A DNA stretch of 64,000 nt from Pseudomonas sp. AL03. Its GTDB lineage: Bacteria > Pseudomonadota > Gammaproteobacteria > Pseudomonadales > Pseudomonadaceae. The position numbers and the translations under genes were made by a program. The DNA is taken from contig NZ_JASBRE010000002.1 of assembly GCF_029960815.1 (NCBI RefSeq), forward strand, positions 250,698 to 314,697. Reading direction: 5' to 3'. Positions within the stretch are counted from its first letter, which is position 1. Each line of letters opens with the position of its first letter. The notes beneath the pieces were generated by a model. That model was not told where the DNA came from and did no database searches. It saw nothing but the letters and a program-made list of their open reading frames with translations. Below, in pieces: positions 26,204 to 49,007 of the stretch.

Positions 26204-27546
26204 TTCGTTCCCTTCGTGTCCGCTTGATGCTCGCCGCCACCCTCCTGGCGGTGCTGTTCATGCTGGCGTTGCTGCCAGCCATGCAGGGCGCGTTCAGCCT
26301 GGCGTTGCAGGATTCGATCGAGCAGCGCCTGGCGTCGGACGTCACCACGCTGATCTCCGCCGCCCGGGTGGAAAACAACCGCTTGCAGATGCCGGCGCAG
26401 TTGCCCGATGAGCGTTTCAACCTCACTGACAGCCGTTTGCTCGGCTACGTCTATGACCGCGAAGGGCACCTGGTCTGGCGTTCGAAGGGCACCCAGCAAG
26501 AAAACATCAATTACAAACCGCGTTACGACGGACGCGGTAACGAGTTTGCGAGGATCAGCGAAGCCAACGGCCAGGAGTTCTTCGCCTATGACGTCGAGGT
26601 CAAACTGCTGGGCGGCAAGAGCGCGGCGTTCAGCATCGTCGCGCTGCAACCGGTGCGGGAATACGACGACACCCTCGAAGGCCTGCGGGAAAACTTGTAT
26701 CTGGGCTTCGGCGCGGCCTTGCTGGTGTTGCTCGCGTTGCTGTGGATTGGTCTGACCTGGGGCTTGCAGGCATTGCGCCGGCTCAGCCAGGAACTGGACG
26801 AAATCGAAAGCGGCACCCGCGAAAGCCTCAGCGAACAACACCCGCGCGAACTGCTGCGCCTGACCGGCTCCCTCAACCGCTTGCTGCACAGCGAGCGCGA
26901 ACAACGCAGCCGTTATCGCGATTCCCTCGACGACCTGGCCCACAGCCTGAAAACCCCGCTGGCCGTGTTGCAAGGCGTCAGCGAAGACATGGCCCAGCGC
27001 CCGGCAGATCGCGATCAGGCCTGGGTGCTGCAATCGCAGATCGAACGCATGAGCCAGCAGATCAGCTATCAGTTGCAACGCGCCAGCCTGCGCAAAAGCG
27101 GTCTGGTGCGCCACCAAGTGCGCCTGCGCCCCGTGCTGCAAAGCCTCTGCGACACCCTGGACAAGGTCTACCGCGACAAGCGCGTGCGGGTCGCTTTCGA
27201 TTTGCCGGAACAGTGTTACGTGCCGATCGAGCAGGGCGCCTTGCTGGAAATGATGGGCAACCTGCTGGAAAACGCCTATCGCCTCTGCCTCGGCGAAGTG
27301 CGCATCAGCGTGCGTGAAAGCCTTGGCGGGGTTGAGTTGTGCGTTGAAGACGATGGGCCGGGCGTGCCACCGGGTCAGCGTGCGCGGATTCTGCAAAGGG
27401 GCGAACGGCTGGACCGGCAGCATCCGGGGCAGGGGATTGGGTTGGCGGTGGTCAAGGACATCATCGAAAGCTACAGCGCGAAGCTGACGCTGGGGGATTC
27501 GCCGATGGGTGGGGCGGCGTTTCGGATTCATTTTCCGGTGGCTTGA
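26200..27546 (+). CDS. phoQ: sensor histidine kinase PhoQ
   Basis: 448 residues with TTG start inside the phoP stop overlap. TM1 about 7-29 (LMLAATLLAVLFMLALLPAM), an acidic periplasmic PAS-like sensor of about 135 residues, TM2 about 168-188 (LGFGAALLVLLALLWIGL), HAMP, H box SLDDLAHSLKTPLAVLQ (phospho-acceptor H), N box NLLENAYRLC, G1 DDGPGVPP, G2 GQGIGLAVVKD. The kinase DLAHSLKTPL variant is typical of PhoQ. A shortened run after the G1 box (RARILQRGERLDRQHPGQG) is also as in PhoQ. A BIME follows the stop. Confidence 0.92.
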   Translation: MIRSLRVRLMLAATLLAVLFMLALLPAMQGAFSLALQDSIEQRLASDVTTLISAARVENNRLQMPAQLPDERFNLTDSRLLGYVYDREGHLVWRSKGTQQENINYKPRYDGRGNEFARISEANGQEFFAYDVEVKLLGGKSAAFSIVALQPVREYDDTLEGLRENLYLGFGAALLVLLALLWIGLTWGLQALRRLSQELDEIESGTRESLSEQHPRELLRLTGSLNRLLHSEREQRSRYRDSLDDLAHSLKTPLAVLQGVSEDMAQRPADRDQAWVLQSQIERMSQQISYQLQRASLRKSGLVRHQVRLRPVLQSLCDTLDKVYRDKRVRVAFDLPEQCYVPIEQGALLEMMGNLLENAYRLCLGEVRISVRESLGGVELCVEDDGPGVPPGQRARILQRGERLDRQHPGQGIGLAVVKDIIESYSAKLTLGDSPMGGAAFRIHFPVA

Positions 27547-27558
27547 CCGCGAGTAACC

Positions 27559-27669
27559 GATCGTTCCCACGCTCCGCGTGGGAATGCAGCCCGGGACGCT
27601 CCGCGTCCCATCTACAGCCGAACGCGGAGCGTCCGTTGAGGCATTCCCACGCGGAGCGTGGGAACGATC
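27559..27669. repeat. BIME of the GATCGTTCCCACGC family, copy 1
   Basis: Opens with GATCGTTCCCACGCTCCGCG and closes with its inverse ending GGGAACGATC; two inner inverted pairs (GGGACGCTCCGCG) lie between. Related copies flank the next gene (28371-28484) and occur at 35649-35751 and, as a half unit, 37739-37769. Confidence 0.93.
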
Positions 27670-27789
27670 ATTAAGCGGTGTTTAAAACACATCTCCAGAC
27701 ACTCACTCAAGCTACACATCCTTGCGCCGCTGCCTACGACTACGCCAGAATCCGCCGGCTTGTGCGCCTTGGGTCTGGGCTCTATCGTT

Positions 27790-28008
27790 TGCGGGTCGCT
27801 GCCAATTCAGCGTCCGGATTTGACCGTCCGATTCAATCAAGGCGTACCAGTGTCCAAGAAAAGCTTCAGGCTTTTTTGCGGTGGCTGTGCGCGGGACACC
27901 TTCGGGTGTGCCGGATACCTTGATTTCCGGTCGGTCAACCCGCGCACAGCTGCCACCTTTTCGTTTGACCGCGAACGGTGGCAGCTCCGCTAATCAAGGA
28001 GCATCACC
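27790..28008 (+). ncRNA. structured leader RNA with alternative helices, candidate cis-regulator of the DUF6124-type gene
   Basis: Complementary segments form P1, 27880-27895 with 27939-27957 (16 bp, three-base bulge), enclosing a UUCG hairpin (27896-27909) and a second hairpin (27911-27930). The 3' strand of P1 (27948-27957, AGCTGCCACC) can instead pair perfectly with 27977-27986 (GGTGGCAGCT) as P2. The end of P2 overlaps GCTCC at 27984-27988, which can pair with GGAGC at 27998-28002, the Shine-Dalgarno of the gene (P3). P2 and P3 exclude each other, as do P1 and P2. Upstream, AAAAGC/GCTTTTTT at 27859-27876 looks like a weak terminator. No known class is recognised; the ligand or trigger is unknown. 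Confidence 0.65.
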
Positions 28009-28368
28009 ATGTTCAAAGCCACGCCCAACCCTCCGGAAACCGACGACGTTTCCCCCTACGAAACCCCCGATTCCAAAATACTCAACGAAGCCGCCGACCG
28101 CGCCCTCGATTACTACCTCAACCCGGCTGCCCACATCAAAGCCCCCCCGCGCACACCCGGCACCATGTTCATCGTCAACCCGGAGCTCGATACCGAAACC
28201 CTGCTGGCCCACGCTTGCGAGTCGCTGGCCTCGGCCAATGTCATGACCATGGACCTGGCGGACCATATGGAGGGGCCGAGTCGCAATTCGCTGTTGGGTA
28301 TTGCGCAAATCATCATGCTGGGGGAGCTGGCGGTAAATCGGGCGCTGGATAACATCGACCAGCAGTAA
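28009..28368 (+). CDS. DUF6124/DUF3077-type small Pseudomonas protein
   Basis: 119 residues, starting MFKATPNPPETD and continuing with SKILNEAADRALDYYLNP, then FIVNPELDTETLLAHACESLASANVMTMDLADHMEGPSRNSLLGI and a C-terminal helix IIMLGELAVNRALDNI. It matches from memory a family found many times in fluorescent pseudomonads and of unknown function. There is no signal peptide, membrane helix or catalytic motif; it is acidic and mostly helical, so a small cytosolic protein. GGAG lies 7 bases ahead of the ATG and can be sequestered by the leader RNA. BIMEs flank the leader-gene unit on both sides. Confidence 0.8.
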   Translation: MFKATPNPPETDDVSPYETPDSKILNEAADRALDYYLNPAAHIKAPPRTPGTMFIVNPELDTETLLAHACESLASANVMTMDLADHMEGPSRNSLLGIAQIIMLGELAVNRALDNIDQQ

Positions 28369-28370
28369 CC

Positions 28371-28484
28371 GATCGTTCCCACGCTCCCGCGTGGGAATGC
28401 AGCCCGGGACGCTCTGCGTCCCTCTCGAGAGCTGGAACGCGGAGCGTTCCTTGAGGCATTCCCACGCGGAGCGTGGGAACGATC
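28371..28484. repeat. BIME of the GATCGTTCCCACGC family, copy 2
   Basis: Same architecture as 27559-27669 with small changes. With that copy it brackets the DUF6124-type gene and its leader. Confidence 0.92.
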
Positions 28485-28491
28485 ATCGGCT

Positions 28492-29490
28492 CTAGTTTTC
28501 TTGCGCGCGGTAGGCGCCCGGCGTCACCCCCGTCCACTTCTTGAACGCCCGATGAAACGCCGAAGGCTCGGAAAACCCCAGTTGCTCGGCAATCTGTTGC
28601 AACGACAGATCTGCCCGCCCCAGGTGATAAATCGCAATGTCCCTTCGCAGCTGATCCTTCAATTCCTGAAAACTCGACCCTTCTTCCCGCAAATGCCGAC
28701 GCAAGGTCTGCGGGCTGATGTGCAGGTGCGCGGCCACCGCTTCCAGGTCCGGCCAGCGTGAACTGTCGCGGCTTAGCAACCGGCGTAGTTGACTGCTCAA
28801 GCTGTCGCCATCGTCCGGGCGCGACAACAGGTCGGCGGGAGAGCGTTCGAGGAAATGTTTGAGTGTCCGTTCGTCCTGCAACAGCGCCATGTTCAAGTAG
28901 CGACTGTGAAACAGCAGGCTGCTCTGTGCCGTGGAAAACTCCAGCGGGCACGGGAACAGCAAATCGTATTCGGCGCCATGTTCCGGTCTCGGGTAGCTGA
29001 ACGTCGCCTGCTCCAGCCGAATGCGCTGGCCGATCAACCAGCTGCCGAGGCGATGCCACACCATCAACTGGCTCTCGGTGAGGAAATGGTCCGGGTCCTG
29101 GAATTTCGAATCATCCAGGCTGAGGCGGATCATTTCGTCTTCGCGGGTCAGGGTCAGACGCGGCCCCTCGGGGAACAGGCTGTAAAACAATAAGCCGCGT
29201 TGGAGTGCTTTCTCCAGACTGCGGCAGTGAATCACCGCATGGCACATCATCGCGAAGCTGCCGGTTTTACTCGGCACCGGCCCGAAACCCAGGTACTCAT
29301 CGTCCAGCGCCAGCCACAAACCCTGGATCAACCGGGTGAACTGCTCAGGTGCAATTCGTGCACGCGGTTCGTCAAGCAACTCGGGGCTGATGCCCAGTTG
29401 TTGCAACAGGAGTGAATAGTCATAACCCAACCGTCGCGCACCACCGAGGGCGGCACGGGCGAAATGACTGGCGATGGTGCGTTCGCGCAT
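28492..29490 (-). CDS. AraC-family transcriptional regulator
   Basis: 332 residues from the ATG at 29490. The N-terminal half (about 10-210) is an Arabinose_bd-type ligand domain (LGISPELLDEPRARIAPEQF, EYLGFGPVPSKTGSFAMMCH). The C-terminal part holds two helix-turn-helix motifs: AAHLHISPQTLRRHLREEG and IAEQLGFSEPSAFHRAFKKW, ending in TGVTPGAYR, the AraC signature. It is divergent from dctA. Regulators of this subgroup often control catabolic genes, but its target cannot be deduced. Confidence 0.9.
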   Translation of the reverse strand: MRERTIASHFARAALGGARRLGYDYSLLLQQLGISPELLDEPRARIAPEQFTRLIQGLWLALDDEYLGFGPVPSKTGSFAMMCHAVIHCRSLEKALQRGLLFYSLFPEGPRLTLTREDEMIRLSLDDSKFQDPDHFLTESQLMVWHRLGSWLIGQRIRLEQATFSYPRPEHGAEYDLLFPCPLEFSTAQSSLLFHSRYLNMALLQDERTLKHFLERSPADLLSRPDDGDSLSSQLRRLLSRDSSRWPDLEAVAAHLHISPQTLRRHLREEGSSFQELKDQLRRDIAIYHLGRADLSLQQIAEQLGFSEPSAFHRAFKKWTGVTPGAYRAQEN

Positions 29491-47655: not shown

Positions 47656-49007
47656 TGGCCAAGCAAGAGAGAGGCCTGCGCTTCCAACCCACGGGCGGCA
47701 GCAAGGCCCCGCAAATCCCGACGGGTAAAAAGCAGCGTTTGAGCATCGAGCGTCTGGCCAATGACGGTCGCGGTATCGCTTTTTTTGAAGGTCGCACCTG
47801 GTTCGTCATCGGCGCATTGGCCGGTGAAGAAGTCGAAGCACGTGTGTTGGGCGCCCACGGCAAAGTGGTCGAGGCGCGCACCGAGCGCGTCTTCCTGGCC
47901 AGCGAACTGCGCCGCCCGGCACCGTGCCCGCATGCCGGTCGCTGTGGTGGTTGCAGCGTGCAACATCTGCCGCACAACGAACAACTCGCCCTGAAACAGC
48001 GCATGCTCGCCGAGCAGTTGTCGAAGGTTGCCGGTGTCGTACCCGAAGAATGGGCCGCGCCGTTGAGCGGTCCGGAATTCGGTTACCGTCGTCGCGCCCG
48101 AGTGGCGGTGCGCTGGGACATGAAAGCGAAAAAACTCGAAGTCGGTTTCCGCGCGGCAGGCAGTCAGGACATCGTTGCGATCAACGAATGCACGGTGCTG
48201 GTCCAGCCCTTGCAGCCGATCATGACCCGCTTGCCGGAAATGTTGCGGCGCTTGAGCAAACCTCAAACGCTGGGGCATGTGGAATTATTTGCCGGATCAA
48301 AGCTGGCCGTTTTGCTGCGGCACATGGCGCCGCTGTCCGACGCCGACATGACGATCCTCAAGGATTTCTGCGCCTTCCATGAAGCCCAACTGTGGCTGCA
48401 CGGTGACGGCGAACCGCAACCGGTCGAGGCTGGCCAGGCGCTGGGTTATCGACTTGAACAGTGGGACTTGAACCTGGCCTGGCGGCCGGGGGATTTCATT
48501 CAAGTCAACGCCGGGGTCAACGAAGCGATGGTCGCCCAGGCGCTGGACTGGCTCAAGCCTGTGTCGGATGAGCGGGTTCTGGATCTTTTTTGTGGTTTGG
48601 GTAACTTTGCACTGCCGCTGGCCAAGGCCGTTCGTGAAGTGGTGGCGGTGGAAGGTGTGCAGGCGATGGTCGAGCGTGCCGCTGCAAACGCTGCTAGCAA
48701 TAATCTGAATAACGTAAAGTTTTTTCAGGCCGATTTATCCCAGCCTTTGACCGATGCCGAATGGGCGCGCGAAGGCTTTTGTGCGGTACTCTTGGACCCA
48801 CCACGTGACGGTGCTTTCGAGGTTGTGCGCAAGCTGTCCTCCCTGGGCGCCAAGCGGTTGGTGTACGTGTCGTGCAACCCGGCAACGCTGGCGCGCGATA
48901 CGGTCGAATTGATCAAGCAGGGCTACCGGTTAAAACGTGCCGGGATTCTCGATATGTTTCCTCAGACGGCACATGTCGAGGCCATGGCGTTATTTGAAGC
49001 GAGCTAG
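47655..49007 (+). CDS. rlmD: 23S rRNA m5U1939 methyltransferase RlmD
   Basis: 450 residues. A TRAM domain (about 25-85, [20 protein letters not shown]), the iron-sulfur cysteines [15 protein letters not shown] (about 92-106) plus C in INECTVLV, then the Rossmann SAM domain: [32 protein letters not shown] and [13 protein letters not shown], with the catalytic cysteine in [13 protein letters not shown]. It methylates U1939 of 23S rRNA. The order cysM-rlmD-relA-mazG is the standard Pseudomonas arrangement. Confidence 0.96.

Follow-up and report, generated by a model that had tools for sequence, protein, structure and literature searches.

The leader ahead of a small DUF6124 gene in the window (the whole 64,000-nucleotide stretch of Pseudomonas sp. 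AL03 DNA analysed here) is a member of the C4 antisense RNA family by every feature tested here, and a riboswitch reading was rejected. We consider it highly probable that the locus is a chromosomal C4 antisense RNA unit which represses DUF6124 and has a two-state leader; the C4 copy very probably shuts off the small gene downstream. The new content is the chromosomal expansion of C4 with matched small genes, together with a conserved alternative helix, c3:c2. In the open-licence literature that was searched, none of the papers connected C4 with DUF6124 or reported that C4 has expanded in Pseudomonas, a result that is provisional.

Identity and layout of the leader

The region 27874-27960 (+) matched the Rfam family C4 antisense RNA (RF01695) over its full length at 79.4 bits, against a cut-off of 45, and 27782-27834 (+) matched c4-a1b1 (RF03163) at 47.5 bits, against a cut-off of 46.7. 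Both families were catalogued in 2010 for Proteobacteria and phages (PMC2864571). When 4227 Rfam families were searched at cut-off, the whole window gave five matches, namely three tRNAs, C4 and c4-a1b1, and none to a riboswitch family. The isrK family (RF01394) reached 32 bits in the window against a cut-off of 50. Some miRNA-like matches at 28371-28484 were rejected; they were far under their cut-offs and sit on a palindromic repeat. A preliminary description of the leader had proposed riboswitch-like logic of no published class and had suggested an Rfam search as a check. Neither the riboswitch nor the absence of a published class held, with RF01695 and RF03163 both over their curated cut-offs and a junction that varies between copies. 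What the description had right is a structured leader, found here to be conserved, whose pairings ahead of a DUF6124-type gene exclude one another. The order in the window is a1 (27819), b1 (27835), C4 (27874-27960), a2 (27964), b2 (27992) and gene start (28009), with the following features:

27552-27671 (no strand): left REP-type palindromic repeat, sharing 92% identity with its right-hand counterpart
27760-27765 and 27781-27788 (+): promoter-like motif, TTGTGC, spacer and TCTATCGT, from visual comparison of copies
27819-27826 (+): a1 (TTTGACCG), complement of a'
27835-27842 (+): b1 (AATCAAGG), complement of b'
27879-27895 (+): c5, 5' arm of the C4 closing stem and 5' strand of helix P1
27896-27909 (+): second hairpin of C4, with a UUCG loop
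27910-27931 (+): third hairpin of C4, with b' in its loop
27918-27925 (+): b' (CCTTGATT), which recognises b2 and b1
27932-27938 (+): a' (CGGTCAA), which recognises a2 and a1
27939-27957 (+): c3, the 3' half of the stem that closes C4; its part 27948-27957 alternatively pairs with c2
27964-27971 (+): a2 (TTTGACCG)
27977-27986 (+): c2 (GGTGGCAGCT), which pairs with c3
27984-27988 (+): GCTCC, left arm of the Shine-Dalgarno hairpin, P3
27992-28002 (+): b2 (AATCAAGG, 27992-27999), overlapping the right arm of P3 as well as the Shine-Dalgarno sequence AAGGAG (27996-28001)
28009-28368 (+): DUF6124 gene, 119 aa, the presumed cis target (PF19619, E 1.8e-26), frame intact
28364-28486 (no strand): right REP-type palindromic repeat

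The c4-icd-ant unit of phages P1 and P7 has the same C4 fold, with a1/b1 upstream, a2/b2 downstream, b2 at the ribosome site and a regulated start about 50 nt after C4. The annotated order in phage P1 is promoter, a1, b1, C4 (48343-48419), a2, b2 and the icd start at 48470, 51 nt past C4. The window unit differs in being chromosomal, in having 24 copies in the genome and in carrying a single DUF6124 gene in place of icd-ant; icd-like and ant genes were absent behind the window C4. The window copy has GG at the expected start of the stem (27880) and lacks the AUGG that occupies C4 model positions 5-8, at the 5' end, in 130 of 136 Pseudomonas copies. Among the 131 Pseudomonas copies having the AUG, the frame is open across all of C4 in 91.

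The promoter-like motif would place the transcript start near 27793. A TTG..-TAnnnT pattern just 5' of the a1 hairpin recurs by eye (no statistic), as viewed in the 76 of 113 loci where the a1 hairpin was found; a strict sigma-70 scan of 27500-28500 gave no site. A transcription start downstream of 27880 had been named as a finding that would speak against a regulatory leader. The motif at about 27760-27788, recognised by eye, lies upstream of that point, but the strict scan lends it no site. The weak terminator-like hairpin that had been described ahead of C4 is similarly visible by eye at about 27857-27877 but was unreported by the scan. Only 5 of the 24 C4 copies in this genome have a T-run ahead of C4, which makes a short, terminated RNA of the isrK kind unlikely in the majority.

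Recognition pairings and alternative helices

In the window copy a' forms 7 bp with a2 and b' forms 8 bp with b2, b2 covers the Shine-Dalgarno sequence, and a', b', a1, b1, a2 and b2 are all intact and matching. The pairings a':a2 and b':b2 were the strongest, and they had been overlooked in the preliminary description. For 23 of the 24 C4 copies in the window's genome (L032, without a downstream gene, was left out), 0 of 10,000 permutations matched the own partners for a':a2, b':b2, a':upstream and b':upstream each, although copy L031 lacks an a1 that matches (rank 23 of 23). For larger sets of non-redundant loci, the duplex energy of own partners was compared with that of permuted partners and expressed as z. 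Among 136 Pseudomonas loci (of 181), z was -20.5 for a':a2, -34.5 for b':b2, -25.0 for a':upstream and -10.1 for b':upstream. The corresponding values for 59 loci outside the genus, phage P1 among them, were -12.4, -19.5, -12.6 and -9.3 (59 of 73 loci; 8 without a start and 6 near-duplicates were left out). Kinship survives permutation, and control pairings, which share this kinship, hence serve as a guard; 10 of them ranged from -3.1 to +1.0 in the Pseudomonas set and 11 from -2.2 to +2.4 outside the genus. An earlier Pseudomonas pairing set comprised 96 of 113 loci (5 without a start and 12 near-duplicates left out), and 15 earlier control pairings gave z of -1.9 to +2.8. In alignment A3, composed of 109 sequences (the window, 54 from Pseudomonas and 54 from outside, with phage P1 left out), a':a2 had 200 double-changed cells vs 51.4 +/- 8.4 when shuffled, and all slid versions were far lower.

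The loop and linker of the junction, which had been taken as a possible ligand-holding site, are the recognition sequences b' and a', and they change alongside their targets. The junction looks unlike a ligand pocket, since b' and a' vary from copy to copy with these targets and a pocket should conserve its sequence. Across the 24 C4 copies of the genome, a' occurs as 16 different 7-mers, and the b' loop differs in every copy (24 sequences). For 19 of 23 copies in this genome no target scored better than the own one (ties included), and 5.5% of the pairs with a non-cognate partner reached the own score, so the addresses are largely but not wholly private.

The three helices given in the preliminary description, P1, P2 and P3, are all present. 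P1 (27879-27895 with 27939-27955) is the closing stem of the Rfam C4 model; P2 joins 27948-27957 (AGCTGCCACC) to 27977-27986 (GGTGGCAGCT) in 10 pairs; and P3 joins GCTCC at 27984-27988 to GGAGC at 27998-28002 in 5 pairs. The hairpin with the UUCG loop (27896-27909) was also found, as the second hairpin of C4, and the other hairpin carries the b' loop. P1 and P2 exclude each other because the c3 strand is common to both. Values of z for P1, P2 and P3 were -17.5, -8.3 and -4.4 in the 136 Pseudomonas loci, and -21.9, -9.4 and -6.2 in the 59 loci outside the genus. The covariation that had been suggested as a check on these helices was found as compensatory changes in P1 and P2, and weakly in P3. 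P2 covaries within and beyond Pseudomonas, with 102 double-changed cells vs 35.8 +/- 12.1 and 0 of 500 shuffles as high (109 sequences), and slid versions of c3:c2 were far lower on both paired cells and covariation score. This helix is an addition to the Rfam C4 model, and phage P1 has 8 of 9 of its pairs by eye. P3, with 23 double-changed cells vs 15.3 +/- 3.5 shuffled and 8 of 500 shuffles as high, is modestly above noise, because a further 12 control pairings reached z -3.4; the column count agrees. The order a'-c3-a2-c2 would allow an H-type pseudoknot as well.

The recurrent AAUCCGUCC near the start codon had raised the idea that the 5' arm of C4 might pair further, into the coding region. 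This extension was unsupported, with z of +0.9, +0.3 and -0.7 in Pseudomonas and of -1.2, -3.4 and +1.0 outside, where the -3.4 falls in a stretch in which pairing was not predicted. Since AAUCCGUCC is in frame in 45 of the 46 Pseudomonas loci having it, it is more likely a shared protein start.

In thermodynamic predictions made without proteins, co-transcriptional folding or pseudoknots, the window leader with its own upstream part had a probability of 0.00 for the C4 fold and 0.63 for c3:downstream, vs 0.54 and 0.45 without the upstream part. Of the 136 full Pseudomonas leaders folded in this way, 63 preferred the C4 fold, 52 preferred the c3:c2 fold and 21 preferred neither; once the upstream part was removed, the C4 fold was preferred by 134 of them. 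The mean predicted C4-fold probability in these loci was 0.44 with the own upstream part, 0.84 with a swapped one and 0.92 with a shuffled one; the values for 65 loci outside the genus were 0.45, 0.83 and 0.86. The predicted shift is thus a property of the cognate a1/b1, and own a1/b1 would unfold C4 and favour P2. Predicted exposure of the Shine-Dalgarno sequence barely moved (own 0.34 vs swapped 0.30; outside the genus 0.27 vs 0.26) and the phage P1 leader was predicted to hold the C4 fold even with a1/b1 (0.94), which weakens a simple on/off reading.

Distribution of C4 and the genes behind it

The assembly of the window contained 24 C4 matches, 23 of them over the cut-off, and 22 a1/b1 matches at E <= 0.001, of which 3 were over the cut-off. 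Coordinate comparison placed 11 of its 15 DUF6124 genes just behind a C4, and an open frame of at least 60 aa starts within 140 nt behind 22 of the 24 C4 copies. Damaged copies were L014, which has a start but an early stop, and L032, which has no downstream gene. Elsewhere in this genome, the DUF6124 gene of locus L052 (C54:59580) has c4-a1b1 upstream at C54:59347-59398 and no C4 match between; it is perhaps a copy that lost its C4. C4 was found over the cut-off in at least 53 of 59 genomes of the genus (own included), with at least 54 copies in one of them, these counts being lower bounds with 61 candidates scored per genome. In a draw from the class, C4 occurred in 18 of 274 genomes, and in a draw from the phylum it was over the cut-off in 60 of 398.

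From the scan for DUF6124 relatives 80 loci were kept, all titled Pseudomonas. C4 lay directly upstream in 74 of them, at 48-60 nt in 73 and at 134 nt in one; of the remaining six, four had a C4 farther upstream and two had none. A single phage record of 50,697 contained DUF6124 and none of the plasmid records did, and C4-like DNA turned up in 31 phage records, every one a Pseudomonas phage. The window protein had no match in PADLOC, PHROGs or NCBIfam, and a literature search of open-licence papers on DUF6124 found none. AlphaFold2 predicted a two-helix hairpin (62-85, 90-118) with a mean pLDDT of 77 and a pTM of 0.49. No function is claimed for DUF6124, because this model had no match in PDB at E <= 0.001 (best E 1.1).

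Gene starts were sought 40-69 nt after the end of the C4 model, and in 108 Pseudomonas loci the chosen start lay 44-65 nt past it. The 108 proteins behind C4, a sample biased to high-scoring C4, formed 14 BLAST clusters, of 56, 18, 15, 7, 2 and 2 members plus eight singles. The largest includes DUF6124 and at least six DUF3077-like proteins, identified by motif, and representatives of the clusters of 18 and 15 had no Pfam match. The cluster of seven includes a Bro-N protein (PF02498, L015), which recalls the antirepressors of phages; its gene follows the own-genome C4 at L015:1501-1588, like the antirepressor targets of phage C4. Elsewhere in the genus, C4 copies thus also precede a Bro-N gene or a short leader ORF that overlaps a second gene. 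The short first frames overlap the next start by 4 nt in 12 of 19 inspected loci, which resembles the icd/ant1 coupling of phage P1. Short-frame loci include L108, L119, L132, L134, L139 and the NPS-type such as L054-L070, and several of the second genes are DUF3077-like by eye. The motif [ND]P[PSYF] was present in the first 14 residues of 109 of 136 Pseudomonas proteins, across families, vs 4 of 59 outside the genus.

At the locus itself, the C4-DUF6124 unit is framed by the two REP-type repeats, whose 21-nt palindrome core has 110 forward and 96 reverse occurrences in the genome. In six related genomes where both neighbour genes stand side by side, the same gap contained no DUF6124 and no similarity to the unit; the four of these gaps that were inspected showed different repeats or very little besides. 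One relative has, in this gap (L083:220-1520), a tandem array of another repeat, of ~185 nt by eye. The unit seems either to have been gained recently or to have survived locally.

Proposed mechanism and competing explanations

We infer a single transcript, from near 27793, that would carry a1/b1, C4, a2/c2/b2 and DUF6124. Folded C4 may be excised from it by RNase P, by analogy with the C4 of phages P1 and P7, for which RNase P processing and an RNA of about 77 nt are described (PMC5320573). The a' and b' of C4 would then pair with a2 and b2 of DUF6124 messages, mask the Shine-Dalgarno sequence and block translation. Alternatively, a1:a' and b1:b' pairing within one molecule would unfold C4 and free its 3' arm for c2, and the resulting P2 would be incompatible with P1 as well as with the hairpin at the Shine-Dalgarno sequence. 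If IsrK of Gifsy-1 is a fair analogue, free RNA of the a1/b1 type supplied in trans should relieve the repression. Against the model of a C4 unit stand the missing AUGG of the window copy, the empty strict promoter scan, the partly shared targets and the lack of a matching a1 in L031.

IsrK (Salmonella prophage Gifsy-1, RF01394) offers a close comparison for a1/b1 in that isrK lies directly upstream of C4, overlapping a1/b1, in 3 of 15 loci scanned (L166, L173 and L265), and this position suggests that the two may be the same element. Differential RNA-seq in Burkholderia cenocepacia assigns isrK, which has a start site and measures 81 nt, to one transcriptional unit with C4, which has none and measures 90 nt (PMC4603805). 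For Gifsy-1, two interconverting leader structures were reported from native gels and compensatory mutants, a likeness to the predicted two-state leader of the window, and the fold with IsrK paired downstream in cis was silent (PMC4825925), which runs opposite to the naive expectation that the a1/b1 fold would be on. The same report describes short IsrK in trans lifting translation about 100-fold; its Table 1D gives 224 and 327 units for compensated double mutants vs 4 for the wild type, with single mutants at 93, 484, 218 and 926 (PMC4825925). The terms 'C4 RNA', 'phage P1' and 'Rfam' do not occur in its main text. The Gifsy-1 system may also be a C4 leader in which short IsrK titrates C4, and such titration would explain why the compensated double mutants stay derepressed.

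The Group 1 sRNAs of Acinetobacter baumannii, described with 21 C4-like copies in one genome, a variable a' loop and an RNA-seq processing pattern (PMC5320573), likewise combine many copies in one chromosome with variation of the a' loop. They are presented there as trans sRNAs with their targets left open, whereas the Pseudomonas copies precede matching target genes. The CI RNA of phage P4, with seqA/seqC, is likewise an antisense RNA released from a leader and flanked by sites complementary to it (PMC4825925); it is likened here by description and differs in acting on transcription termination.

A ligand-binding riboswitch, in which P1 and its two hairpins would hold a small molecule while P1, P2 and P3 switch access to the Shine-Dalgarno sequence, is very improbable. 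These helices do exist and exceed controls, but the region matches an antisense family above cut-off, the changes in its junction linker and loop follow those in a1/a2 and b1/b2, with 16 versions of a' and 24 of b' in the 24 copies of one genome, and no conserved pocket was seen. We find it scarcely credible that the unit is a phage relic in decay, formerly serving C4 immunity and now nonfunctional. The empty locus in six related genomes, the altered AUGG and the damaged copies L032 and L014 would suit such decay, yet the recognition elements and the DUF6124 frame of the window are intact, and DUF6124, nearly absent from phages and missing from plasmid records, is widespread behind C4 in Pseudomonas chromosomes.

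That the leader is mainly a cis switch, where the choice between the a1/b1 fold and the C4 fold sets translation of each transcript and trans C4 is minor, seems unlikely. This reading could draw on the specific shift of the predicted fold by cognate a1/b1, on the covariation of c3:c2 and on the two interconverting structures in the IsrK report (PMC4825925). It sits poorly with b':b2 as the top signal (z -34.5 and -19.5), since b1 occupies b' in the a1/b1 fold, and with a predicted Shine-Dalgarno exposure that is nearly constant. The compensated IsrK doubles stay derepressed (PMC4825925), which loss of a C4-type contact would explain and a pure cis switch would not.

With the C4 antisense unit as the preferred reading, a false riboswitch lead is replaced by a testable antisense mechanism, and DUF6124 gains a regulatory context, 74 of 80 related loci being behind C4. 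At least 54 C4 copies in one genome, and mostly private pairing in the genome of the window, point to a natural orthogonal antisense RNA set. The conserved c3:c2 helix and the a1/b1 effect join phage P1 C4 and Salmonella IsrK in one testable scheme. A wider reading, which we put forward tentatively and think rather doubtful as a whole, is that Pseudomonas genomes carry tens of C4-led islet cassettes each and that C4 leaders are in general two-state with self-reinforcing memory. Each cassette would combine a private antisense address with a small protein gene from one of several families, and would be gained and lost as an islet. If this holds, each transcript would pick either the antisense RNA (c5:c3) or the alternative fold (a1:a', b1:b', c3:c2), and existing C4 would occupy the a1/b1 of transcripts made later, promote the formation of more C4 and so provide memory. 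The genus would then possess a largely orthogonal system of RNA addressing outside phages.
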